Shown piece by piece: positions 22,674-35,682 of a stretch of DNA of 42,218 nt. The stretch is taken from contig JAGVNY010000221.1 in the NCBI GenBank assembly GCA_020053015.1, positions 1-42,218 on the forward strand, written 5' to 3'. Position 1 is the stretch's first letter. Every line of letters begins with the position of its first letter. The notes below the pieces were generated by a model. The model ran no database searches, had not been told where the DNA came from, and saw only the letters and a list, made by a program, of their open reading frames with translations. The stretch comes from Candidatus Zixiibacteriota bacterium. GTDB lineage: Bacteria; Zixibacteria; MSB-5A5; JAABVY01; JAHJOQ01. Made by a program: the position numbers and the translations under genes.

Positions 22674-23570
22674 CTACGCGAAAGTAACCAGAAAGGCTCC
22701 ACCCACTCCAAGTAGAATGGCCAAGATTCTCATTGAAGTCAGCTTCTCTTTGAGGATCAGCGCCGCAAGCACGAAAATGATCAAGTTGCTGGTCTGATTC
22801 AGTGCTGCGGCTACCGAAGCCTGCGCGAATTTCATGCCCCCAAGCCAAAGGAGCATTGACAAATATGCCCCTACGAAGGAACTCGACACCGTGTAGCCCC
22901 AGCTGTGAGCGGACAGAATGGACTGTATGATGGCCCTCCGAGATGAATGGAAAGCGAGCACCGTCAGGACCACAATGACGCCTCCTGCAAGTCGTACCTC
23001 GGTCACCCAGAAAATGGGTGAGCGCTCAAGCAAGGGCTTGATCATGACGATTCCTATTCCGTTGGCGACCATTGCGGAGAGTCCATATGCTACGCCCTTC
23101 ATGACGTGACGACGGCTCGGTGAGCCCGAGTGATTATCGCCACCGGTCATCAACACAGCAGTAACGATCAGCAACACCCCGCTCAGTTGCCAAGGGCTTA
23201 GACTCTCGCCCAACCAAATCACTGACAGTATTATGATCACGGGAGCATAGGCACAATCCACAATAGCAGTGAGCCCGGCTCCAAGGGCATTGAGACTCTT
23301 GAAGAAGAGAGTGTCAGCGACACCAATGCCGAGCGCTCCACTCGCGAGAAGCAGAAGGTACTCGTGGGCAGGAACGTCGCGGATTATCGACTCACCAAAT
23401 AGATAGGCAGTCGGCACAAGAAGCGTCATCGACAGCAGGTTCTTGAAGAGATTCAAACCCAGAGGGTGAACAGTCTCCCCGCTCTTCTTGAAGAGAATCA
23501 CTGCGAAAGCCCACGCGATCGCTGTGAGCAGCGACAAAGTCTCGCCCAAATATGATCCCAGGATATCCAT
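22674..23570 (-). CDS. DMT-superfamily transporter (EamA domains)
   Basis: A 298-residue membrane protein with about ten hydrophobic segments in two EamA repeats. Segment one is LLTAIAWAFAVILFKKSG, a typical repeat start, and ALNQTSNLIIFVLAALILKEKLT with a final GGAFLV lies in the second repeat. Such proteins export amino acids, metabolites or toxic analogues; the substrate cannot be told. The frame is open to a TTG at 23630, but the ATG at 23570 directly precedes the first membrane segment and is preferred. It is 126 bases from the arsenic genes and may be independent. Confidence 0.85.
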   Translation of the reverse strand: MDILGSYLGETLSLLTAIAWAFAVILFKKSGETVHPLGLNLFKNLLSMTLLVPTAYLFGESIIRDVPAHEYLLLLASGALGIGVADTLFFKSLNALGAGLTAIVDCAYAPVIIILSVIWLGESLSPWQLSGVLLIVTAVLMTGGDNHSGSPSRRHVMKGVAYGLSAMVANGIGIVMIKPLLERSPIFWVTEVRLAGGVIVVLTVLAFHSSRRAIIQSILSAHSWGYTVSSSFVGAYLSMLLWLGGMKFAQASVAAALNQTSNLIIFVLAALILKEKLTSMRILAILLGVGGAFLVTFA

Positions 23571-23696
23571 TACAACAGTCTCTTGCACCAATCTCTCAGA
23601 AATCCCGCAAGGTAAGTGACAGAACTGCAACCTGTGCGGCTATCAAGACTGGAAAATGTAAGCAATGATCGATAGAACAACAAGGAGGCAATCAAC

Positions 23697-24779
<1,083 letters not shown>

Positions 24780-24835
24780 GAGTGTTCCGTGGAGACTCTG
24801 AGGATTGCTGCATGTATCCAACTTCGCACGTGGCC

Positions 24836-25267
24836 CTACTCCAACAAGATGTCCGGCAGCTTCTCAACCAGAGCGCGAATCTCGTCACGGACGCGCCGGT
24901 AATGCTTCAACGCTTCATCATCAGTTCGGCTCCCTTGAGCCAACCGGGGAGGATCGTCAAACCCGAAGTGCAGTCTCCTCGTGTTGCCCGGAAACACGGG
25001 ACAGTTTTCATCAGCTTGATTGCATACCGTTATGACATAGTCGAACTCAAGTCTGGAAAGATCTGTAACGGACTTTGAACGCTGACTCGAGATGTCAACG
25101 CCGACCTCTCTCATCACCCGAATAGCATGCGGATCAAGCCCCTTTGGGGTGATGCCTGCCGATCGAACATCGATCACATCGCCTTTCAGATGGCGAGTCC
25201 ACCCCTCCGCCATTTGACTCCGACAGGAATTCCCCGTGCAGAGATAGAGGATTCTCAGCTTTCGCAC
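24836..25267 (-). CDS. arsC: arsenate reductase, thioredoxin-coupled (pI258 ArsC type)
   Basis: A 143-residue enzyme of the low-molecular-weight phosphatase fold that reduces arsenate to arsenite. The catalytic loop CTGNSCRS holds C10, C15 and R16, and C82 and C89 lie in VCNQADENC. These are the same numbered cysteines as in the Staphylococcus pI258 enzyme, which relays electrons C10-C82-C89 to thioredoxin. DDPP near the C-terminal third supplies the acid aspartate. The GTG start overlaps the end of arsR by 13 bases and has AAGAAG just before it. Confidence 0.95.
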
Positions 25268-25644
25268 TGCTTCTTGCGCAAAACCTCGGGATCAAGCCTC
25301 AGTATCTGTTTCAGACGTTCCGCGTCATTTCTGAACTGTCGATCCTTTCTCAGTCGCAGAAACAGCGGTCCTACCATGGCAGCCAGATCACCTGTCATAC
25401 ACTCAGGCGCCAACCTGTAGTACATCCATCTCCCCTGTTTGCGGCTTTCGGTCAGACCGGAGCGTTTGAGGACCGACATGTGTTTCGACACGGTGGAAGG
25501 CGCCAGTTGTAGAAGCTCCGTAAGTTGGCACACGCACACTTCTCTGCCCCTCAAAGAGGCAAAGGCGCGAAGCCTGCTCGCATCTGACAGGGCTGAAAAG
25601 ATGTCGAGTAGCTGTCTCAGATTATCACATTCTTGTTTCGCCAT
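25255..25644 (-). CDS. arsR: ArsR family arsenic-responsive repressor
   Basis: A 129-residue winged-helix repressor starting at the ATG at 25644. EVCVCQL (35-41) is the arsenite-binding motif with C37 and C39, and LAPSTVSKHMSVLKRSGL is the recognition helix region. Arsenite binding would release it from DNA and turn on arsR-arsC-acr3. The frame continues to an ATG at 25662, but the promoter's -10 box lies inside that extension, so the shorter start is correct if the promoter is. The message would then begin at or within a few bases of the start codon. Confidence 0.93.
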   Translation of the reverse strand: MAKQECDNLRQLLDIFSALSDASRLRAFASLRGREVCVCQLTELLQLAPSTVSKHMSVLKRSGLTESRKQGRWMYYRLAPECMTGDLAAMVGPLFLRLRKDRQFRNDAERLKQILRLDPEVLRKKQCES

Positions 25645-25651
25645 ATGACGA

Positions 25652-25679
25652 AATATATCCATTGGAAGGCCAATGTCAA
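25652..25679 (-). promoter_or_regulatory. arsR promoter with operator palindrome in the spacer
   Basis: On the minus strand TTGACA (25679-25674, exact consensus) is followed after 16 bases by TATATT (25657-25652). Between and overlapping them lies the perfect inverted repeat CATTGGAAGGCCAATG (25660-25675), placed to block RNA polymerase when ArsR is bound. Transcription should start about seven bases further on, at or just before the ATG at 25644. Confidence 0.6.
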
Positions 25680-25821: not shown

Positions 25822-25850
25822 TTGACAAGCCGCCACCCGCCTGCTATCTT
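25822..25850 (+). promoter_or_regulatory. sigma70-type promoter of the hydrogenase operon
   Basis: TTGACA (25822-25827, exact consensus) and TATCTT (25845-25850) are 17 bases apart. A start near 25857 gives a leader of about 40 bases before the ATG at 25898. An inverted repeat CCGGTT/AACCGG (25783-25788 and 25805-25810) lies just upstream. Confidence 0.5.
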
Positions 25851-25859
25851 GCCCTGGGC

Positions 25860-25877
25860 TTGTGAAATAAATCACAA
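25860..25877. promoter_or_regulatory. perfect CRP/FNR-superfamily binding palindrome
   Basis: TTGTGAAATAAATCACAA is an exact inverted repeat with the TGTGA-N6-TCACA pattern of CRP-type regulators. It sits just downstream of the predicted transcription start, where a bound protein would repress; if the true start is further downstream it could activate. The regulator is not in this window. Confidence 0.55.
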
Positions 25878-25897
25878 CGGGTAGGGTGTGATATCAT

Positions 25898-27007
25898 ATG
25901 GCCGTGAACAAGATCCTTCCAAGAGACGACTTCCAGCGACTGATTAGCTTTCTCCGGACCGACGGCTATCAAGTCATCGGCCCCACTTTGCGCCAGGGAG
26001 CGGTCGTGTATGAGGAGATCCAATCGACCTCGGACTTGCCCGAAGGTTGGATTGACCTTCAGGACGGAGGGTCTTACCGTCTTGAGAGAAGCGAAACCAG
26101 CGCTTTCTTCGGCTACGTTGTCGGACCTCAGTCATGGAAGCAGTTCCTTTGCCCGCCGCAGCGCAAACTGCTGACCGCGGAACAGACCGGCAAGAGCTTC
26201 AACGTAATTGTCTACGACGAGAAACCAATCAAACGAGCATTTGTCGGCGTGCGACCGTGCGAAATCGCTGCGATGGCAGTGCAGGACAAGGTGCTTATGG
26301 AGGGTCCATTCGTTGACCCTTCCTATCGCCTCGCTCGGCAGAACGCGATCATCATTGCGGTGAACTGCGCTCGCGCGGGCGGAACGTGCTTCTGCGTTTC
26401 GATGGGAACCGGCCCAAAAGCTTCGTCGGGCTTCGACATAGCCCTGACCGAACTCATCGATCAACATGGCCACCGGTTCCTGGTCGAGGCTGGCTCCGAG
26501 ATCGGTATCGGAATGGTGACGAAGTTGGCTCTCGGGGACGCCTCTGAGTCAGATATTGAGGCAGGCGAGAAGGCAATCGCGAACGCATCTGCCAATATGG
26601 GGCGCACTCTCGATACCAGCGGCATCAAGGAACTTCTCTACACTAACTTTGATCACGGCAGATGGAACGACGCTGCGTCGCGCTGCCTCTCGTGCGCCAA
26701 CTGCACGATGGTTTGCCCGACCTGCTTCTGCGCAACCGTAGATGAAGCAACCGATCTCTCCGGAAAGTGCGCGGAGAGGTGGCGAAAGTGGGACTCCTGT
26801 TTCACGGTCGGATTCTCGTATATCCACGGCGGGAGCATAAGAACATCCGGCATGTCTCGATACAGACAGTGGATGACCCACAAGCTTGCCTACTGGCAAG
26901 ATCAGTTTGGAACGTCCGGATGCGTGGGCTGCGGCAGATGTATCACGTGGTGTCCTGTGGGAATCGACATTACGGAGGAAGCCCGCGCGATTCGCCACAC
27001 ACGGTGA
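25898..27007 (+). CDS. hydB: [NiFe] hydrogenase beta subunit, 4Fe-4S protein (group 3b)
   Basis: A 369-residue soluble iron-sulfur subunit that passes electrons between the hydrogenase core and the flavin subunit. CLSCANCTMVCPTCFC (near 263-278) and CVGCGRCITWCPVGID (near 341-356) are the two ferredoxin-type cluster motifs. An earlier block around CARAGGTCFC is also typical of the sulfhydrogenase beta family. There is no signal peptide, so the enzyme is cytoplasmic. It is the first gene of the hydrogenase operon, with a good promoter 48 bases upstream. Confidence 0.93.
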   Translation: MAVNKILPRDDFQRLISFLRTDGYQVIGPTLRQGAVVYEEIQSTSDLPEGWIDLQDGGSYRLERSETSAFFGYVVGPQSWKQFLCPPQRKLLTAEQTGKSFNVIVYDEKPIKRAFVGVRPCEIAAMAVQDKVLMEGPFVDPSYRLARQNAIIIAVNCARAGGTCFCVSMGTGPKASSGFDIALTELIDQHGHRFLVEAGSEIGIGMVTKLALGDASESDIEAGEKAIANASANMGRTLDTSGIKELLYTNFDHGRWNDAASRCLSCANCTMVCPTCFCATVDEATDLSGKCAERWRKWDSCFTVGFSYIHGGSIRTSGMSRYRQWMTHKLAYWQDQFGTSGCVGCGRCITWCPVGIDITEEARAIRHTR

Positions 27008-27043
27008 GGAGCCGAGTCACATTTCATGGAGAGGATGTAACCG

Positions 27044-27508
27044 ATGGAGAATCTCGAAAGAATCCTTGCGGAGCACCCGTTCTTTGCGGGCCTCGCTCCC
27101 CAGCACCTAAAGCTGCTCGTGGGATGTGCTTCAAATATGGTGTTCAAGGAAGGGCAGTTCGTGTTCCACGAAGGACAGGAGGCGAACTACTTCTACATCA
27201 TCCGTCACGGCAAGGTAGCCGTCGAGACGTTCATTCCACAAAAAGGCCCGATCGTCATCCAAACCCGGAGCGAAGGCGAGGTGCTCGGCTGGTCGTGGCT
27301 GGTGCACCCGTACCGCTGGCATTTCGATGCAAGAGCGATGGAAGTCACGAGAGCCATCGTTCTCGACGGGAAGTGTCTGCGCGGAAAGTGCGAGGAAGAT
27401 CATGACCTGGGCTACGAGATGATGAAACGATTCACACAGATCATTGCCGCGAGACTCGAGGCTACAAGAATTCAACTGCTGGACGTATATGGTAGCTCGA
27501 AAGGCTGA
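27044..27508 (+). CDS. cyclic nucleotide-binding domain protein without DNA-binding domain
   Basis: A 154-residue protein made of one CRP-type beta-roll domain: FKEGQFVFHEGQEANYFYII near residues 31-50, then GKVAVE and EGEVLGWSWL. The CRP phosphate-binding arginine-serine pair is not evident in WSWLVHPYRWHF, so cAMP binding is doubtful. After a helix similar to the CRP dimer helix the protein stops, without a helix-turn-helix. It lies between the beta and gamma hydrogenase genes, 36 and 31 bases away, suggesting a ligand- or redox-sensing partner of the enzyme rather than a transcription factor. Similar genes are known in group 3b operons. Confidence 0.85.
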   Translation: MENLERILAEHPFFAGLAPQHLKLLVGCASNMVFKEGQFVFHEGQEANYFYIIRHGKVAVETFIPQKGPIVIQTRSEGEVLGWSWLVHPYRWHFDARAMEVTRAIVLDGKCLRGKCEEDHDLGYEMMKRFTQIIAARLEATRIQLLDVYGSSKG

Positions 27509-27539: not shown

Positions 27540-28355
27540 ATGTCCACGGCGCCGTTCAGAATCACCCGCGTGATCAAGGAGACGCAGGATACATTCTCTA
27601 TGGAGCTGGCTCCGGAGGCCAGTGGCGAACGATTCTCGTTTTCTCCGGGTCAATTCAACATGCTCTACGTGTTCGGCGTGGGCGAAGTACCGATTTCGAT
27701 AAGCAGCGATCCTACTGGCCAGATGCCACTCGTCCACACGACGCGGGCTGTCGGCGCTGTCACGCAGGCAATGTGGAAACTGAAGGCAGGCGACGCCCTG
27801 GGAATTCGCGGACCCTACGGCCGTGGTTGGCCGGTCGAACAAGCGCTGCACAACGACGTCGTCATAGTGGCAGGAGGCATCGGACTTGCTCCGCTACGAC
27901 CGGTGATCTATTCCATTCTCGCTGATCGTGACAGATTCGGCAGAGTCGTCCTGCTCTATGGCACTCGCACGCCTGAAGATATGCTCTTCCGCAAAGAACT
28001 CGAGAAGTGGCGCTCACGCTTCGATCTCGAGATCCACATGACCGTAGATCGTGCAACGGGATCCTGGCGCGGAAATGTCGGCGTAGTCACTACTCTCATT
28101 GGCAGATCGCCCTTCGATCATCAAAACTGCGTGGCGATGGTCTGTGGACCCGAGATAATGATGCGATTCACAGTCCTCGAACTTCAGAAACGCGGCGTCA
28201 ACGACGACCGAATATTCATCTCCATGGAACGCAATATGAAGTGTGGTATCGGACTCTGCGGACACTGCCAGCTCGGATCGAGCTTTGCTTGCAAAGACGG
28301 CCCGGTCTATAGCTTTGCGGAGATCAAAGCTCTCTTCACGAAGAGGGAGATGTAA
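27540..28355 (+). CDS. hydG: hydrogenase gamma subunit, FAD/NAD(P)-binding with 2Fe-2S centre
   Basis: A 271-residue ferredoxin-reductase-like subunit where NAD(P)+ is reduced or NAD(P)H oxidised. The flavin domain holds VPISISSDP, and [20 protein letters not shown] (near 109-128) starts the nucleotide domain. Near the C-terminus [12 protein letters not shown] and a later cysteine in FACKDGPVY bind a 2Fe-2S cluster, as in dihydroorotate dehydrogenase electron-transfer subunits. The ATG at 27540 is chosen because AGGTGG stands six bases before it; a longer frame starts inside the preceding gene without a ribosome site. Confidence 0.93.
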
Positions 28356-28356
28356 C

Positions 28357-29136
28357 ATGGGCCGTAAGTACAAGCCGAAACTCGCAGTCTGGAAGTTCGC
28401 CTCGTGTGATGGCTGTCAGCTCACGCTCCTTGACTGCGAAGATGAGCTGCTGGCAGTCACCGATGAAATCCAGATAGCGAACTTCCCTGAAGCTTCCCGG
28501 GCAATTGTGAAGGGGCCGTATGACGTTTCGCTGGTCGAGGGATCGATCACTACTTCCCATGACGCCGAGAGGATACACAAGATCCGTCGGAGCTCGAAAG
28601 TGTTGGTTGTAATCGGCGCCTGCGCGACTGCCGGCGGAATCCAGGCCCTGCGCAACTTCGCGAATGTCGAAGATTACAAGTCGATTGTATACGCTTCGCC
28701 GGAGTATATCGATACGCTCAGCAAATCGACGCCGATCGCGGATCATGTATTTGTCGATTTTGAGCTCAGAGGTTGTCCGATCAGCAAGAGTCAACTTATT
28801 GAGCTGGTCACAGCGTATCTAAGTGGCAGGAAGCCGAATATACCACCGCACAGCGTCTGCATCGAGTGCAAGAGACGTGGCACAGTGTGTGTCATGGTCT
28901 CCACGGGGATTCCATGCCTCGGTCCGGTGACTCAAGCAGGATGCAGAGCGCTCTGTCCATCGTACAACAGAGGATGCTACGGCTGTTTCGGTCCCAAAGA
29001 AACGCCCAATACAGACTCCCTCTCGGTGCAGTTCAAGAAATTCAATATGTCCAGGGACGCAATCAAGAGAGCGTTTCGCGGCTTCAACGCCTATGCCGAG
29101 CCATTCAGAAAGGCGAGCGAGGCTCATGAAAAATAG
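28357..29136 (+). CDS. hydD: hydrogenase delta (small) subunit, group 3b
   Basis: A 259-residue [NiFe] hydrogenase small subunit. SCDGCQ near the N-terminus, GACATAGG and RGCPI supply the four cysteines of the cluster next to the active site. The C-terminal part is rich in cysteines ([32 protein letters not shown]) and binds two further clusters. No twin-arginine signal is present, in line with a cytoplasmic enzyme. It starts one base after the gamma stop, with GGGAG upstream, and overlaps the alpha gene by 11 bases. Confidence 0.94.
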
Positions 29137-30415
29137 AACTGTCAAAGTAGACTACTTAGCCCGTGTAGAGGGCGAGGGTGGGTTGTTTGTACGTGTGAAG
29201 AACGATGTCGTCACCGAGGCGAAGTTCAGAATCTTCGAGCCCCCCCGTTTCTTCGAAGCATTCCTTCGCGGTCGTCACTTCACCGAAGCTCCTGACATAA
29301 CGGCACGCATTTGCGGAATCTGCCCCATTGCATACCAAATGAGCTCCGTCCACGCGATGGAGCAGGCATGCGGAGTCGTGGTCGACGGTCAGCTGCGCGC
29401 TCTTCGGAGGCTGATCTACTGCGGCGAATGGATCGAATCACACGTTCTGCACATCTATATGCTGCATGCTCCCGATTTCCTCGGCTACGAAGATGCGATT
29501 CAGATAGCCAAGGATCACCCCGATGTTGTTAAGCAGGCGCTGAAACTGAAGAAGATAGGCAATGACATTGTCGCTTTGCTCGGAGGACGCGAAATCCACC
29601 CTATCAACATCAAGGTCGGCGGATTCTATCGCGTGCCTTCCAAAACCGAACTGGCTCCATTGGCAGAAAAGCTGAAGTGGGCGCTCGACACTGCCATCGA
29701 GACTGCTCGCTTCACTTCGACTCTCCCCTTTCCAAAGATGGAGCGAGATTACGAATTCGTTTCTACTAGCCACCCTGACGAATACCCATTCAACGAGGGG
29801 AATATCATCTCAAGCAAACAGCTGGACATCACGAAGGATGACTTCTATAACCATTTTGAAGAGCAGCACGTGAAGCACTCCACTTCATTGCACTCGGTCA
29901 GGAAGGCGACGGGAGAGTATCATGTGGGTCCTCTTGCTCGGTACAACCTCAACTATGACCGATTGCCTGATGTAGCCAAACAAGCTGCGACTGCAGCCGG
30001 ACTCGAGACAACATGTACGAATCCGTTCAAAAGCATCATCGTGAGGGCGGTGGAGACAGTCTTCGCATGTCACGAGGCACTCCGGATCATCACCGAGTAC
30101 GAAGAGCCCCGAACACCGTCAGTGGATGTACAGCCTAAGGCCGGCGTTGGACATGGATGCACCGAAGCGCCGCGTGGCATGCTCTATCATCGCTACAGAA
30201 TCGACGACAAGGGCATAATCCAAGACGCTAAAATAGTGCCGCCAACGTCACAGAACCAGAAAGTTATCGAAAGCGATCTTGCGGATTTCGTTTCTCGCAA
30301 CATAGGATTGCCTCAGGACAAGCTCACCTGGCAATGCGAGCAGGTCGTCCGCAATTATGATCCGTGTATCTCATGTTCCTGCCACTTCTTGAAACTGCAT
30401 ATCGAACGGGAGTGA
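29126..30415 (+). CDS. hydA: [NiFe] hydrogenase alpha (large) subunit, group 3b
   Basis: A 429-residue catalytic subunit holding the Ni-Fe(CN)2CO centre. The nickel ligands are C63 and C66 in RICGICP and C414 and C417 in DPCISCSCH. The nine residues after H420 form the tail that a protease removes once nickel is in place. The gene order beta-gamma-delta-alpha and the NAD(P)-binding subunit identify a group 3b enzyme, which oxidises H2 or makes it using NAD(P)H, and in some archaea also reduces sulfur. The ATG at 29126 was chosen over 29093 because GCGAGG stands near it and LARVEGEG comes at the usual distance. Confidence 0.95.
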
Positions 30416-30422
30416 TAAGGCC

Positions 30423-30917
30423 GTGTGCGGCCAGTCCGCAATAGTCGTCATCGGACTCGGTAATGAATACAGACATGACGATGGTGTCGGGCTGTACGTT
30501 GCACGATCCATCAGGGCGATGGCTCCAGATAAGGTTGCAGTCGTCGAGGGAGCTGCTGACAGCACGCAACTGGCTCTCGCAATAGCCGATAGGGATATCG
30601 CCTACATAGTCGATGCCGCCACTTCGGGCACACAGCCAGCGGGATACACTCACTGCTACTCCGCTCTTCGCGGCGCCATTCCAGAGGATGTGTTGAGCGG
30701 AAAGACATCTCACAACGTATCTGTTAACGAGGCATTGTTCCTCGTTGATTTGATTGGAACGCGACCACTTGGTGTCTTTGTCTATGGAATCGAGGGGGCA
30801 GACTTCTCGCAGGGAATCGGGTTGTGCGATGAGGTCAAGAAAGCTGGTGACTCGGTGATCGACATCATCGTCAATCTCATTCGACGAAAGTCGCCTCGCA
30901 GTAGAAGCCAGGCCTGA
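30423..30917 (+). CDS. hydrogenase maturation protease (HyaD/HycI family)
   Basis: A 164-residue endopeptidase that trims the C-terminal tail of the large subunit after nickel insertion. IGLGNEYRHDDGVGLYVAR near residues 10-28 is the family signature, with the nickel-probing glutamate and aspartate, and a second acidic site lies in VDAATSG. The expected histidine is in SHNVSVNEAL. It begins 7 bases after the alpha gene with a GTG start and so appears dedicated to HydA. Confidence 0.92.
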   Translation: MCGQSAIVVIGLGNEYRHDDGVGLYVARSIRAMAPDKVAVVEGAADSTQLALAIADRDIAYIVDAATSGTQPAGYTHCYSALRGAIPEDVLSGKTSHNVSVNEALFLVDLIGTRPLGVFVYGIEGADFSQGIGLCDEVKKAGDSVIDIIVNLIRRKSPRSRSQA

Positions 30918-30918
30918 G

Positions 30919-33252
30919 TTGGATCGACGAGCGATTACAACTGGGCATGCAACTCCTGATGCCAACGTCTCTCAGCGACTTAGGATTGACGCGTCGGGTC
31001 TTGTACAGGGAGTCGGATTCAGACCCTTCGTGTACCGTCTTGCGACTCGGAGCAAGCTGACCGGATGGGTTCGCAACACTGCCGGTGGGGCCGAAATCGA
31101 GGTCGAAGGCCCGAGAGAACGCATCGATGGATTCTTGCGAGCTCTCAGGGATGAACTCCCGTCGATAGCTCGGATTGACCAGTTGACAAGCCTCCAAATC
31201 GATTTGTCAGGCGACATAGATTTCGGAGTACTGGAAAGCGATGCCGCCGGTAAACGATCGGCTTCCGTGTTGCCCGACATAGCCACCTGTCACGACTGCC
31301 TGACAGAGTTGTTTGATCCGGCAAATAGACGATACAGATACCCCTTCACCAATTGCACAAACTGCGGACCGCGATACTCGATAATGGAAGCGATTCCCTA
31401 TGATCGGGAAAGCACGACAATGAAGTCGTTTGTCATGTGCAACGATTGCAGCGCAGAATACGAGGACCCGTCCAATCGTCGATTTCACGCGCAGCCAAAT
31501 GCATGTCCAACCTGCGGTCCTTGTGTCGAGCTCTGGTCATCTCACGGAGAAGCGCTGGCCTCTCGCAACGAAGCGATCGAGCGAACTTGCAGCGAGCTCC
31601 GTCAGGGCCGAATCGTGGCTCTCAAGGGACTGGGCGGATTTCAACTGGTCGTAAATGCTGCGGACAATGAGGCGGTATTCCTGTTGCGACGTCGAAAGGC
31701 TCGCGAGGAGAAACCGTTCGCAATTATGTACCCGAACATGGAAACGGTCGAGCAAGATTGCGTGCTCAGCGACAAAGAGCGCCAGATGCTCTTCTCAGTC
31801 GAGTCGCCGATTGTGCTCGTTCGCCGCAGAGATTGGCCGCAACTCAATGACCCGATTGTCTCCGCCGTTGCACCGCGCAACCCGTATCTTGGGGTAATGC
31901 TGCCGTATACTCCTCTTCATCACGTCCTGTTGTCAGATCTCGGATTCCCGATAGTCGCGACAAGCGGCAATCGATCAGATGAACCGATTTGCATAGATGA
32001 GAAGGAAGCTGTTTTCCGCCTTGGCGAAATCGCCGACTTCTTCCTTGTTCACAATCGACCCATAGCGCGTCAGGTCGATGACTCAGTCATCCAGATGATT
32101 GACAATGAGCCAATGATGCTGCGATCCGCGAGAGGTTTTGCGCCAGTAACGGTCGAGCTCCCGGCCGAGAGCAAGCCGATGCTCGCTTTCGGAGCACACT
32201 TGAAGAACACGGTCGCTTGTGCCGTAGGCAAGTGCGCTGTTGTTAGCCAGCATGTGGGCGACCTCGATACGACGCTCTCGATCGATGCGCTCAGGAAGAC
32301 CGCTGAGACTACTATGTCTCTCTTTGATGTCTATCCTCAAGCCGCATGCGCGGACCTGCATCACGACTACGAATCAACCAGATTGGCGGCTGCGTCGAAT
32401 CTGCCGGTGACTGCCGTGCAACACCATCTCGCTCACGTTCTTTCGTGCATGACAGAAAACAAGATTTCACCGCCTGTTCTCGGTGTCGCGTGGGATGGCA
32501 CCGGTCTCGGTTCAGATGGCACTGTCTGGGGAGGGGAGTTCCTCAGCATAGACTTCGGCACATGGTCACGCTGCGCACACCTCGCCAACTTTCGGCTTCC
32601 CGGCAGTGAACAGGCGATACGCGAAGCAAGAAGATCGGCGTTGGCCGTCTTGTACGAGACGTTTGGAGACGAAGTGGATCAGGTCGCGCTAAGACTAATG
32701 CCAGGCGTATTTTCAAACGTTGAGATATCGACACTTGTCACTATGCTCAGGCAAACGATCAACTCGCCGGTTTCATCGAGCGCTGGGCGTCTGTTCGACG
32801 CGGTGGCATCCATCTGTGGAATTAGCCATGTCTCGCAGTTTGAAGGTCAATCTGCAATGATGCTACAATTCGCGGCAGAGATGGATTTAGCCGACGGACT
32901 CCTCCCGTTCGAGTTAGTGCGGAGAGACAACCGTGTTCTAATCGACTGGAAACCAACCGTCAGGGCAATTGTGTCTGACCTCGATCGCGGAAAGGCTGTT
33001 CCAACAATTGCCTGTGAATTCCATGCCACGCTCGCAGCAATTGTGGCAGAAGTCGCGAGTCGTATGGACATTGAGAATGTGGCGCTCTCCGGCGGCTGCT
33101 TTCAGAATAGACTTCTCCTGAAGATGACAATTAGCCGCCTTCGGGAGAAAGGTCTCCGACCCTTCTGGCAGCGACGAGTCCCGTCGAATGACGGTGGGAT
33201 ATCGCTTGGCCAAATTGCTGCTGCGGTGCTTAATCTGACAGAGGTGCGTTGA
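30919..33252 (+). CDS. hypF: carbamoyltransferase HypF
   Basis: A 777-residue enzyme that makes the cyanide precursor by moving a carbamoyl group to HypE. Four parts are visible: an acylphosphatase domain (ASGLVQGVGFRPFVYRLA), a zinc-finger pair starting with CHDC near residue 124 and ending CPTCGP, a YrdC-like domain (LKGLGGFQLVVNA), and a Kae1-like carbamoyltransferase domain with HHLAHVLSC and ALSGGCFQNRLL. Length matches the family. The TTG start is one base after the preceding stop; no in-frame ATG or GTG precedes the acylphosphatase domain. Confidence 0.96.
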   Translation: MDRRAITTGHATPDANVSQRLRIDASGLVQGVGFRPFVYRLATRSKLTGWVRNTAGGAEIEVEGPRERIDGFLRALRDELPSIARIDQLTSLQIDLSGDIDFGVLESDAAGKRSASVLPDIATCHDCLTELFDPANRRYRYPFTNCTNCGPRYSIMEAIPYDRESTTMKSFVMCNDCSAEYEDPSNRRFHAQPNACPTCGPCVELWSSHGEALASRNEAIERTCSELRQGRIVALKGLGGFQLVVNAADNEAVFLLRRRKAREEKPFAIMYPNMETVEQDCVLSDKERQMLFSVESPIVLVRRRDWPQLNDPIVSAVAPRNPYLGVMLPYTPLHHVLLSDLGFPIVATSGNRSDEPICIDEKEAVFRLGEIADFFLVHNRPIARQVDDSVIQMIDNEPMMLRSARGFAPVTVELPAESKPMLAFGAHLKNTVACAVGKCAVVSQHVGDLDTTLSIDALRKTAETTMSLFDVYPQAACADLHHDYESTRLAAASNLPVTAVQHHLAHVLSCMTENKISPPVLGVAWDGTGLGSDGTVWGGEFLSIDFGTWSRCAHLANFRLPGSEQAIREARRSALAVLYETFGDEVDQVALRLMPGVFSNVEISTLVTMLRQTINSPVSSSAGRLFDAVASICGISHVSQFEGQSAMMLQFAAEMDLADGLLPFELVRRDNRVLIDWKPTVRAIVSDLDRGKAVPTIACEFHATLAAIVAEVASRMDIENVALSGGCFQNRLLLKMTISRLREKGLRPFWQRRVPSNDGGISLGQIAAAVLNLTEVR

Positions 33253-33253
33253 C

Positions 33254-33508
33254 ATGTGTCTTGCTGTGCCGGGACAGTTGCTGAGCGTGACTGGCGATGA
33301 TCAGTTGACACGAACTGGAAAGGTCGACTTCGGGGGAATAGCCAAGGAAGTTGGCCTCGCATTCGTGCCGGAAGCCGTTGTCGGAGACTACCTGCTGGTC
33401 CATGCCGGTTTTGCGATTGGCATCATTGATGCCGATGAGGCGGCGAGGGTGTTCGAGTATCTTGAAGAAATTGACCGACTTGGCTCCGATACCACTGGAA
33501 AGCCATGA
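33254..33508 (+). CDS. hypC: hydrogenase assembly chaperone HypC
   Basis: An 84-residue HypC/HybG chaperone. MCLAVPGQ leaves cysteine 2 at the N-terminus once methionine is removed; it carries the Fe(CN)2CO group from HypD to the large subunit. [22 protein letters not shown] and DADEA follow in family order. AGGTG stands eight bases upstream. It starts one base after hypF and overlaps hypD by 4 bases. Confidence 0.96.
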
Positions 33509-34596
33509 AGTTCATCGACGAATACCGTGACCCCAAATCCGTGACGCTGTATGCTGATGTGATCAGCAAGGCGACCACGCGTCCATGGTCGATAATGGAA
33601 ATCTGCGGCGGTCAGACACACGCAATTGTCCGAAGTGGCATAGACCAGCTTCTTCCTCCCTCAATTACGCTCCTGCACGGCCCCGGATGCCCGGTGTGTG
33701 TGACGCCCGCCGAAAGCATCGACAAAGCAATCGCGCTTGCATCGCGAGATGACATCACTCTGTGTTCGTTTGGAGACATGATCCGAGTGCCGGGCTCGAC
33801 GCAGGATATTGCCTCGGCGAAAGCGCTCGGCGCAGATGTTCGAATGGTGTACTCCCCTATGGACGCGCTTGAGATCGCGGCCACCAATCCCGACAGAAAA
33901 GTCGTATTCTTCGCGATCGGTTTCGAAACAACTGCCCCCGGCAATGCCGCCGCAGTTGCAGAGGCCAAGCGTTGCGGTATTCGCAACTTCTCGCTGTTGA
34001 CTTCGCAGTTCCTCGTGCCGCCAGCGATCGAGGCAATACTGTCCTCAGAAGGCTGCACTGTACAGGCATTCCTCGCAGCCGGCCACGTTTGCACCATTAT
34101 GGGCTATGATGAATACGAACCAATCGCACAAAGATATCGCATCCCGATAGTCGTTACCGGGTTCGAACCGCTCGATATAATCCAGGGTATCGCCATGGCA
34201 GTCCTCCAGCTGGAGCAAGGAACGACGACTGTTGAGAATCAATATGTGAGGGCTGTGCGACGAGAAGGGAACCCCTCGGCCAAAGCTCTGCTGAAGGAAG
34301 TCTTTGAAGCGGCGGATGGACTGTGGCGAGGCCTCGGTGTGATACCGGCGAGCAGACTGAGGCTTCGTGACGAGTACGCTGCATTCGACGCCGAGCGCAA
34401 GTTCGATGTGAAGACCGTTGCCGCAGAGTCGCACTCTCCGTGCGTGAGCGGCGAGATCCTGAAAGGCCGACTGAAACCAAGCGATTGCCCCGAGTTTGGC
34501 ATACATTGCTCACCCGAACATCCGCTCGGAGCCACAATGGTATCGTCGGAGGGTGCGTGTGCAGCGTACTACAGATACAGAGCCGTTCGAAAATGA
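33505..34596 (+). CDS. hypD: hydrogenase formation protein HypD
   Basis: A 363-residue iron-sulfur scaffold where the iron-cyanide-CO unit is assembled with Hyp[10 protein letters not shown] near residue 33, [12 protein letters not shown] near 57-68 and [11 protein letters not shown] match the conserved blocks, as does [18 protein letters not shown]. The C-terminal cysteines ([27 protein letters not shown]) bind a 4Fe-4S cluster. It shares 4 bases with hypC, so the partners are made together. Confidence 0.96.
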
Positions 34597-34620
34597 CCGT
34601 TACGACCTGGAAATTGTCTG

Positions 34621-35682
34621 ATGTCTGATAATTCGAATAGAGATGTTCAACCCTCCTGCGCGACGCCCGTCACTCGCCCCCGAGTGATTACTCTTGCCCA
34701 CGGCAGCGGCGGAAGGATAATGCATGATTTGATCCAGGATGTCTTTATTGGAGCATTCGGAGGACAGGAGAAGGCGCAGCGACATGACGGCGCCGTGCTC
34801 GACATGGCCACCGAGCGCATAGCCTTCACGACAGACTCCTACGTAGTTGATCCGCTCTTCTTTCCGGGTGGCGATATCGGCAAACTGGCAGTGTGCGGGA
34901 CAGTCAACGATCTGGCAATGTGCGGGGCACGACCCCGGTGGATGAGCGTTGCGTTCATTCTCGAAGAGGGTCTCCAGATCAAAACGCTGGAACGAATCGC
35001 CCTTTCAATGCGAGATTCGGCTGACCACGCCGGTGTTAGCTTAGTAACCGGCGACACGAAAGTAGTCGAGAAGGGCCGCGGACACAAAGTCTTCATAACC
35101 ACCGCTGGAATCGGATCGATCGACCACGGACTCGTGATCTCCCCGGACAGAATCAGAGCCGGGGATGCAGTCGTCCTCAGCGGTGACATCGGCCGACACG
35201 GAATAGCTGTTATTTCGAGCAGACAGGGCCTGTCATTCGAGACTGAGATCACGAGCGATTGCGCAGCCCTCGGCAATCCCGTAATGGCGCTGCTGGAAGC
35301 CGAAATCGAAATCCATTGCATGCGCGATCTTACTCGAGGCGGACTCGCGACAAGCCTCGTGGAGATAGCGGAGAGCGCGAACATGGGAATTCAGATCGCA
35401 GAATCTCGTATTCCAGTTTCTCAGCCCGTTAGAGCGGCGTGCGAATTGCTCGGATTCGATCCGATGTATGTGGCGAATGAAGGCAGATTCGTTGCGTTTG
35501 TCCCTCAAACTCAAGCAGACCAAGCATTGAGCATTCTCCGCACACACGGCAACAGCCAGGGCGCCGAATTGATCGGCGAAGTCACTGGCAACATGCCCAC
35601 TGGAGTTACACTTCTCACTTCCCTCGGAACCCAACGGCCGATCCACATGCTGAGCGGCGAGCAGTTCCCGAGAATCTGCTGA
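34621..35682 (+). CDS. hypE: hydrogenase maturation protein HypE
   Basis: A 353-residue enzyme that dehydrates its own carbamoylated C-terminal cysteine to thiocyanate, supplying cyanide to iron. AHGSGGRIMHDLI starts the ATP-binding AIRS fold; DSYVVDPLFFPGGDIG and VTGDTKVVEKG follow. The protein ends PRIC, the required terminal cysteine. It has an N-terminal extension of about 20 residues. It is the last gene of the run; hypA and hypB are absent nearby. Confidence 0.96.
   Translation: MSDNSNRDVQPSCATPVTRPRVITLAHGSGGRIMHDLIQDVFIGAFGGQEKAQRHDGAVLDMATERIAFTTDSYVVDPLFFPGGDIGKLAVCGTVNDLAMCGARPRWMSVAFILEEGLQIKTLERIALSMRDSADHAGVSLVTGDTKVVEKGRGHKVFITTAGIGSIDHGLVISPDRIRAGDAVVLSGDIGRHGIAVISSRQGLSFETEITSDCAALGNPVMALLEAEIEIHCMRDLTRGGLATSLVEIAESANMGIQIAESRIPVSQPVRAACELLGFDPMYVANEGRFVAFVPQTQADQALSILRTHGNSQGAELIGEVTGNMPTGVTLLTSLGTQRPIHMLSGEQFPRIC

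Follow-up and report, generated by a model that had tools for sequence, protein, structure and literature searches.

A predicted Rex operator and a conserved stand-alone CNBD protein in the group 3b [NiFe] hydrogenase operon of a Zixiibacteriota bacterium

Described counterparts and layout of the operon

Binding of Rex before [NiFe] hydrogenase genes has been described in Caldicellulosiruptor bescii (PMC6391272), and Rex-like motifs precede the group 3b operon (hyd-3b) of Calderihabitans maritimus, which is induced under CO (PMC7306483). At the protein level, HoxI, a small cyclic-nucleotide-binding-domain (CNBD) protein, sits as a dimer on the diaphorase of the soluble hydrogenase of Cupriavidus necator (PMC3702609; PMC3189943) and is required for the NADPH activation of that enzyme (PMC3702609). 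In Rhodococcus equi and in a methanotroph, CNBD genes are known by annotation within group 3b clusters (PMC13332983, PMC12319191). Published examples exist both of Rex control of a group 3b hydrogenase and of CNBD genes in such operons. Searches of mainly open-access literature gave no report of a Rex-controlled hydrogenase in Zixiibacteriota, nor any experimental work on a CNBD protein from a group 3b enzyme.

The operon analysed here lies in a 42,218-nucleotide stretch of DNA (hereafter the window) belonging to a Zixiibacteriota genome that is 88% complete in 263 contigs. Its genes follow the order hydB-CNBD-hydG-hydD-hydA-protease-hypFCDE (Table 1), and HydB (4Fe-4S), HydG (FAD/NAD(P)) and the small and large subunits are all encoded in this one operon, the gene content expected of group 3b. 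NCBIfam equivalogs of the Pyrococcus type were among the best matches of the hydrogenase subunits, yet these fell below the cut-offs. The locus resembles known Rex regulons in its operator sequence, in a rex gene with its own operator, in having nuo and hydrogenase genes as predicted targets and in the repressor position of the site, and differs from them in its phylum and in the skew of its operator. With C. maritimus it shares a predicted Rex site before a group 3b operon; it also includes a CNBD gene, whereas none is among the C. maritimus genes consulted. The clusters of R. equi and the methanotroph, as annotated, share the CNBD gene. Beside the hydrogenase promoter, the divergent minus-strand genes at 22674-25662 encode an ArsR-type regulator, a low-molecular-weight phosphatase/ArsC-like protein, an SBF-family transporter and an EamA transporter, a cluster that looks like an arsenic-type resistance unit.

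Table 1. Promoter, predicted operator and genes of the hydrogenase operon in the window
Feature	Coordinates	Strand	Remarks
Sigma-70-type promoter	25822..25850	+	TTGACA 25822-25827, 17-bp spacer, TATCTT 25845-25850; read from sequence
Predicted Rex operator TTGTGAAATAAATCACAA	25860..25877	.	1 mismatch to TTGTGAANNNNTTCACAA; about +3 to +20; exact 18-mer found again before hydB in 7 relatives
hydB/hyhB-like 4Fe-4S dicluster subunit, group 3b [NiFe] hydrogenase	25898..27007	+	Pfam Fer4_22; NCBIfam ShyB/HydB below cut-off
Stand-alone CNBD protein (154 aa)	27044..27508	+	CRP sensory half without HTH; conserved member of 3b operons
hydG-like FAD/NAD(P)-binding subunit	27540..28355	+	Start uncertain, in-frame starts upstream
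hydD-like hydrogenase small subunit	28357..29136	+	
hydA-like [NiFe] hydrogenase large subunit	29129..30415	+	RICGIC and C-terminal DPCISC motifs
Hydrogenase maturation protease	30423..30917	+	TIGR00072 over cut-off
hypF, hypC, hypD, hypE maturation genes	30919..35682	+	TIGR00143, TIGR00075, TIGR02124 over cut-off; HypC PF01455

The palindrome before hydB and its probable regulator

TGTGAAATAAATCACA at 25861-25876 is the sole perfect TGTGA-N6-TCACA palindrome in the window, and stands with its flanks in the 18-bp context TTGTGAAATAAATCACAA (25860-25877). Only the perfect copy is informative, because matches with two mismatches allowed were rarer in the window than by chance (18 compared to 22), and counts of such matches were discarded as uninformative. 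The palindrome lies ten bases downstream of the TTGACA-17-TATCTT promoter, which carries a TG one base upstream of its -10 box (25845-25850). Transcription would start near 25857-25858, so that the palindrome would span approximately +3 to +20; it lies directly behind the predicted -10 box, where a repressor would sit and where overlap with the promoter would permit repression. The initial annotation had noted a perfect palindrome at the predicted start of transcription, and this observation was confirmed.

At one of 14 fixed positions the 18-mer departs from TTGTGAANNNNTTCACAA, the consensus for Rex given in PMC6391272 and PMC2883068; the Staphylococcus aureus Rex operator is given as TTGTGAAW4TTCACAA (PMC2883068). 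A Rex weight matrix was trained solely on the rex-gene promoters of relatives (20 promoters yielding 15 distinct operators, with 15 promoters from genomes that also have this kind of operator at the hydrogenase and five from others). The hydrogenase operator had the top score in the window with this matrix, approximately 21.4 bits compared to 13.5 for the runner-up, and its score was reached in 0 of 200 random (resampled) windows, the largest value being 18.5 bits. All 20 rex promoters held an operator within two mismatches, 19 of them within one, and each of these operators stands behind a TTGAC box in the same layout as the hydrogenase promoter.

Genome-wide, ten perfect TGTGA-N6-TCACA sites were found compared to none for the reversed control pattern, and seven of the ten scored at least 19 bits with the Rex matrix. 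One of the seven is the hydrogenase operator and another, the perfect operator TTGTGAAAGGTTTCACAA, lies directly upstream of the single rex gene of the genome, whose product has solved structures of Rex as its nearest matches (E 7e-47). The same motif thus precedes both rex and the hydrogenase genes, which suggests that rex is autoregulated through it. The remaining five lie upstream of an HdrCB-like pair (TTGTGAAACGATTCACAA), nuoAB (TTGTGACAAACTTCACAA), a citrate synthase gene (ATGTGAACATCTTCACAA) and a glutamate dehydrogenase gene (ATGTGAACAATATCACAA), and between the genes of an Rrf2 regulator and an FAD-linked oxidase (TTGTGATAAATTTCACAA), with gene labels taken from Pfam. The other three perfect palindromes (L006, L008, L012) scored at most 11.1 bits, and two of these (L008, L012) are inside open frames.

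Since the sequence of the site, its position and its conservation (see below) all fit, as do the genes found with its sister sites, we infer that the palindrome is bound by Rex, an NADH/NAD+-sensing repressor, and that Rex is very probably the gene-level switch of the operon. The redox signal at the gene proposed in the initial annotation is supported by this, while its designation of the site as a CRP-like operator is not.

CRP needs an Arg-Glu...Arg arrangement to read TGTGA, whereas FNR/DNR proteins read TTGAT. The TGTGA-N6-TCACA core equals the CRP consensus and the genome encodes one clear CRP/FNR protein, the only HTH_Crp_2 protein over the cut-off, so a regulator of the CRP/FNR/HcpR family, activated by a nucleotide or redox signal, was weighed as the protein that binds the palindrome. 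The best solved relative of this protein is, however, DNR, and its recognition helix reads S-E-T-L-S-R where M. tuberculosis CRP reads R-E-T-V. An Arg before the recognition Glu was present neither in this protein nor in any of 20 homologues from relatives, 17 of which have ET[LF]SR; a regulator with a CRP recognition helix was not found in the genome, although a CRP could have been missed because the assembly is 88% complete. In line with the reading of TTGAT by FNR/DNR proteins, a TTGAT-N4-ATCAA-like site stands just behind the CRP/FNR genes; 4 of 20 relatives have it in perfect form, and the genome containing the window has it with one mismatch. One relative with both operator and rex (G083, 96% complete) gave no HTH_Crp_2 match at E 1e-6, and a site at +3 to +20 suits a repressor. 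In favour of the CRP/FNR family, the operators of relatives retain TTGTGA/TCACAA while their position 12 departs from Rex, and the group 3b operons of two acidobacterial loci have non-Rex TGTGA-N6-TCACA palindromes. A CRP regulator was nevertheless ruled out as first choice by the DNR-like helix, by G083 and by the position of the site, and control of the palindrome by this family is very unlikely. Presence or absence of the two regulators was uninformative and does not by itself decide, because rex and a CRP/FNR protein were each found in 16 of the 18 genomes with an operator close to hydB (type A, below).

Control regions around CRP-type genes scored high with the Rex matrix in 1 of 20 cases (G093, 20.8). 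A TTGAC-N4-ATCAA-like site on contig 252 of the genome containing the window (L002:807-820) lies where the DNR/FNR-like gene ends, ahead of a ferredoxin-like gene of the same orientation.

Conservation of the operator within and beyond the phylum

The phylum sample consisted of 132 genomes, with rex detected in 118; it was taken as Zixiibacteriota because Candidatus Zixiibacteriota bins are the closest named relatives as judged by the CNBD protein. The Rex matrix was applied to the 250-base region upstream of hydB at 58 phylum loci and in the window, and 37 of these 59 upstreams held a site of at least 14 bits compared to 0.22 expected (11,800 resampled sequences), with no such site in the other 22. 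Two arrangements were seen: the site is no more than 60 bases from hydB in 18 of the 59 (type A, window included) and 100 to 236 bases upstream of it in 19 (type B). Mean pairwise identity among the 18 type-A sequences was 0.89 in the operator compared to 0.30-0.34 in its flanks, indicating that the operator was kept while the surrounding promoters diverged. For 11 of 17 type-A relatives, 8-13 bp separate the end of the best -10 box from the operator, as is also the case in the window. Outside the phylum none of the hydB upstreams tested reached 14 bits; among 28 usable upstreams from a CNBD search of genome contigs only L016 and L017 did so, and both are Zixiibacteriota. Conservation of the palindrome before related operons, on which the initial annotation had staked its proposal, therefore holds inside the phylum and fails among the operons tested outside it.

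In G079 and G092, each 83% complete and each carrying the operator, neither a domain search nor a whole-protein search recovered rex. The sisters of G092 (G091 and G093) carry rex with a perfect operator, and G079 has eight Rex-like sites compared to none for the control. G079 (L016/L090) is a single-contig bin with neither a rex nor a CRP/FNR match; its assembly is doubtful and probably a misassembly, since hydA lies 0.8 Mb from hydB-CNBD-hydG.

The operators close to hydB are skewed to TTGTGAA-N4-ATCACAA: 15 of the 18, across genera and families, have A at position 12, whereas rex promoters have T. Two regulators sharing the hydrogenase operator, Rex and a second protein, would explain this skewed right arm; the skew is, however, absent from three of the 18, one of which is a perfect Rex site (G113), no candidate for the second regulator was identified, and we regard such sharing as most improbable.

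Type B sites, seen at L128, L131-L133 and L136-L138 among other loci, form a second class of Rex-like sites 100-236 bp upstream of hydB, and in the genus of G025-G028 the site stands just before a TTGAC box. Upstream of hydB in acidobacterial group 3b operons, TGTGA(C/T)....TCACA palindromes were observed at L024 (-141) and L029 (-101) and, weaker, at L023. They are poor as Rex sites (6-11 bits), and these operons may be controlled by another regulator, perhaps of the CRP/FNR type.

The stand-alone CNBD protein and possible control at the enzyme

The product of the second gene (27044-27508) matches Pfam cNMP_binding (E 5e-14), and no HTH domain was found in it by Pfam. Its structural model (pLDDT 91) has the fold of CRP-type sensory domains (M. 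tuberculosis CRP, GlxR, Geobacter 3mdp; Z 16-20) and ends in a long C-helix like the helix that pairs CRP dimers. The initial description of the protein as a CRP-type sensory domain devoid of a DNA-binding part holds, and this lack of an HTH sets it apart from the CRP proteins. In the phosphate-binding cassette of cyclic-nucleotide receptors a conserved Glu contacts the ribose and an Arg the phosphate. With the pocket register taken from an alignment to PKG, the pocket Glu (position 83) is Trp in 36 of 39 aligned members of the family and Glu in none, and the pocket Arg (position 93) is retained in three, which again differs from CRP sensory domains. A cyclic-nucleotide signal through this protein is unlikely because these conserved residues are not kept, and the protein is probably a CNBD by fold and not a cAMP/cGMP receptor. 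W85, P89, D108 and R113 are invariant in the 39 members, C28 and C111 are kept in 38, and the rebuilt pocket carries the motifs GWSWL-PP, FDARA and LDG-CLR-KC.

The CNBD protein is a widespread and constant partner of bacterial group 3b operons in several phyla. The gene order hydB-CNBD-hydG was found at all 83 loci having the three genes (loci rather than genomes, with at least four pairs that seem to be duplicates: L016/L090, L017/L093, L019/L122 and L033/L139), and the same order occurs in annotated plasmids of Paraburkholderia and Rhodococcus. Across the 132 phylum genomes HydA was detected in 65 and the CNBD protein in 65, with both in 61. The four genomes with HydA only are all cut by a contig end, one of them retaining the last 24 CNBD residues; no HydA operon in these 132 genomes was shown to be without the CNBD gene, and four other genomes have the CNBD only.

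Like HoxI in the C. necator HoxFUYHI2 enzyme, the protein is small, has a CNBD but no HTH, and belongs by its gene to the operon of a bidirectional hydrogenase; it differs in the hydrogenase group and in the GWSWL-PP motif, which HoxI lacks. The two proteins share 20% identity (26.9 bits), and profile comparison gave HoxI a probability of 92.5 compared to 94.4 for an ordinary CRP/FNR protein, so that kinship to HoxI is no closer than to other CNBD proteins. Orthology was ruled out on these grounds, and the protein is at most HoxI-like in role, not a HoxI. Its constant membership in the operon, together with the HoxI precedent, makes a role at the level of the enzyme, which the initial annotation had put forward tentatively, plausible and HoxI-like in a loose sense.

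Two further searches concerned contact with the enzyme. No natural fusion of CNBD and hydrogenase genes, which would have served as proof of contact, was found among the loci examined, and no chain named as a hydrogenase subunit was among the best 60 matches of each search against solved structures. On a Streptomyces plasmid, a CNBD relative with 37.5% identity (L192:4980-5432) lies outside any hydrogenase operon, adjoining a CBS-domain gene amid universal stress proteins.

The protein might instead serve in maturation or assembly, or act as a signalling protein on its own, and not be a subunit of the enzyme. Such a role would suit the related gene beside a CBS-domain gene in Streptomyces; the gene in group 3b operons is, however, fixed between electron-transfer subunit genes in several phyla and HoxI2 in the C. 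necator enzyme offers a precedent, and we consider a role apart from the enzyme somewhat unlikely. In the reading we prefer, the CNBD protein would be a constant accessory subunit of group 3b hydrogenases, encoded beside the flavin/NAD(P) subunit and probably a homodimer through its long C-helix. It would most likely tune the enzyme and not take part in gene regulation, with a ligand that is perhaps other than cAMP or cGMP.

As to the gene, we infer the direction of Rex control as follows. At low NADH/NAD+, Rex, a winged-helix/Rossmann repressor, would sit on +3 to +20 and block the hydrogenase promoter, and as NADH rises Rex would be released and the whole operon from hydB to hypFCDE expressed. 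The hydrogenase so made may discharge surplus reductant as H2 or re-equilibrate the nicotinamide pool with H2. Nicotinamide sensing at two levels, with Rex reading NADH at the promoter and the CNBD subunit sensing NADP(H) or another non-cyclic ligand, or acting via its conserved cysteines, is an unlikely extension of this scheme.

What appeared to be a CRP site thus becomes a testable point at which NADH may control the H2 metabolism of Zixiibacteriota, a phylum in which the analysis found no cultivated member. The conserved CNBD family, which accompanies group 3b hydrogenases in several phyla, could be a regulatory subunit of these reversible enzymes.
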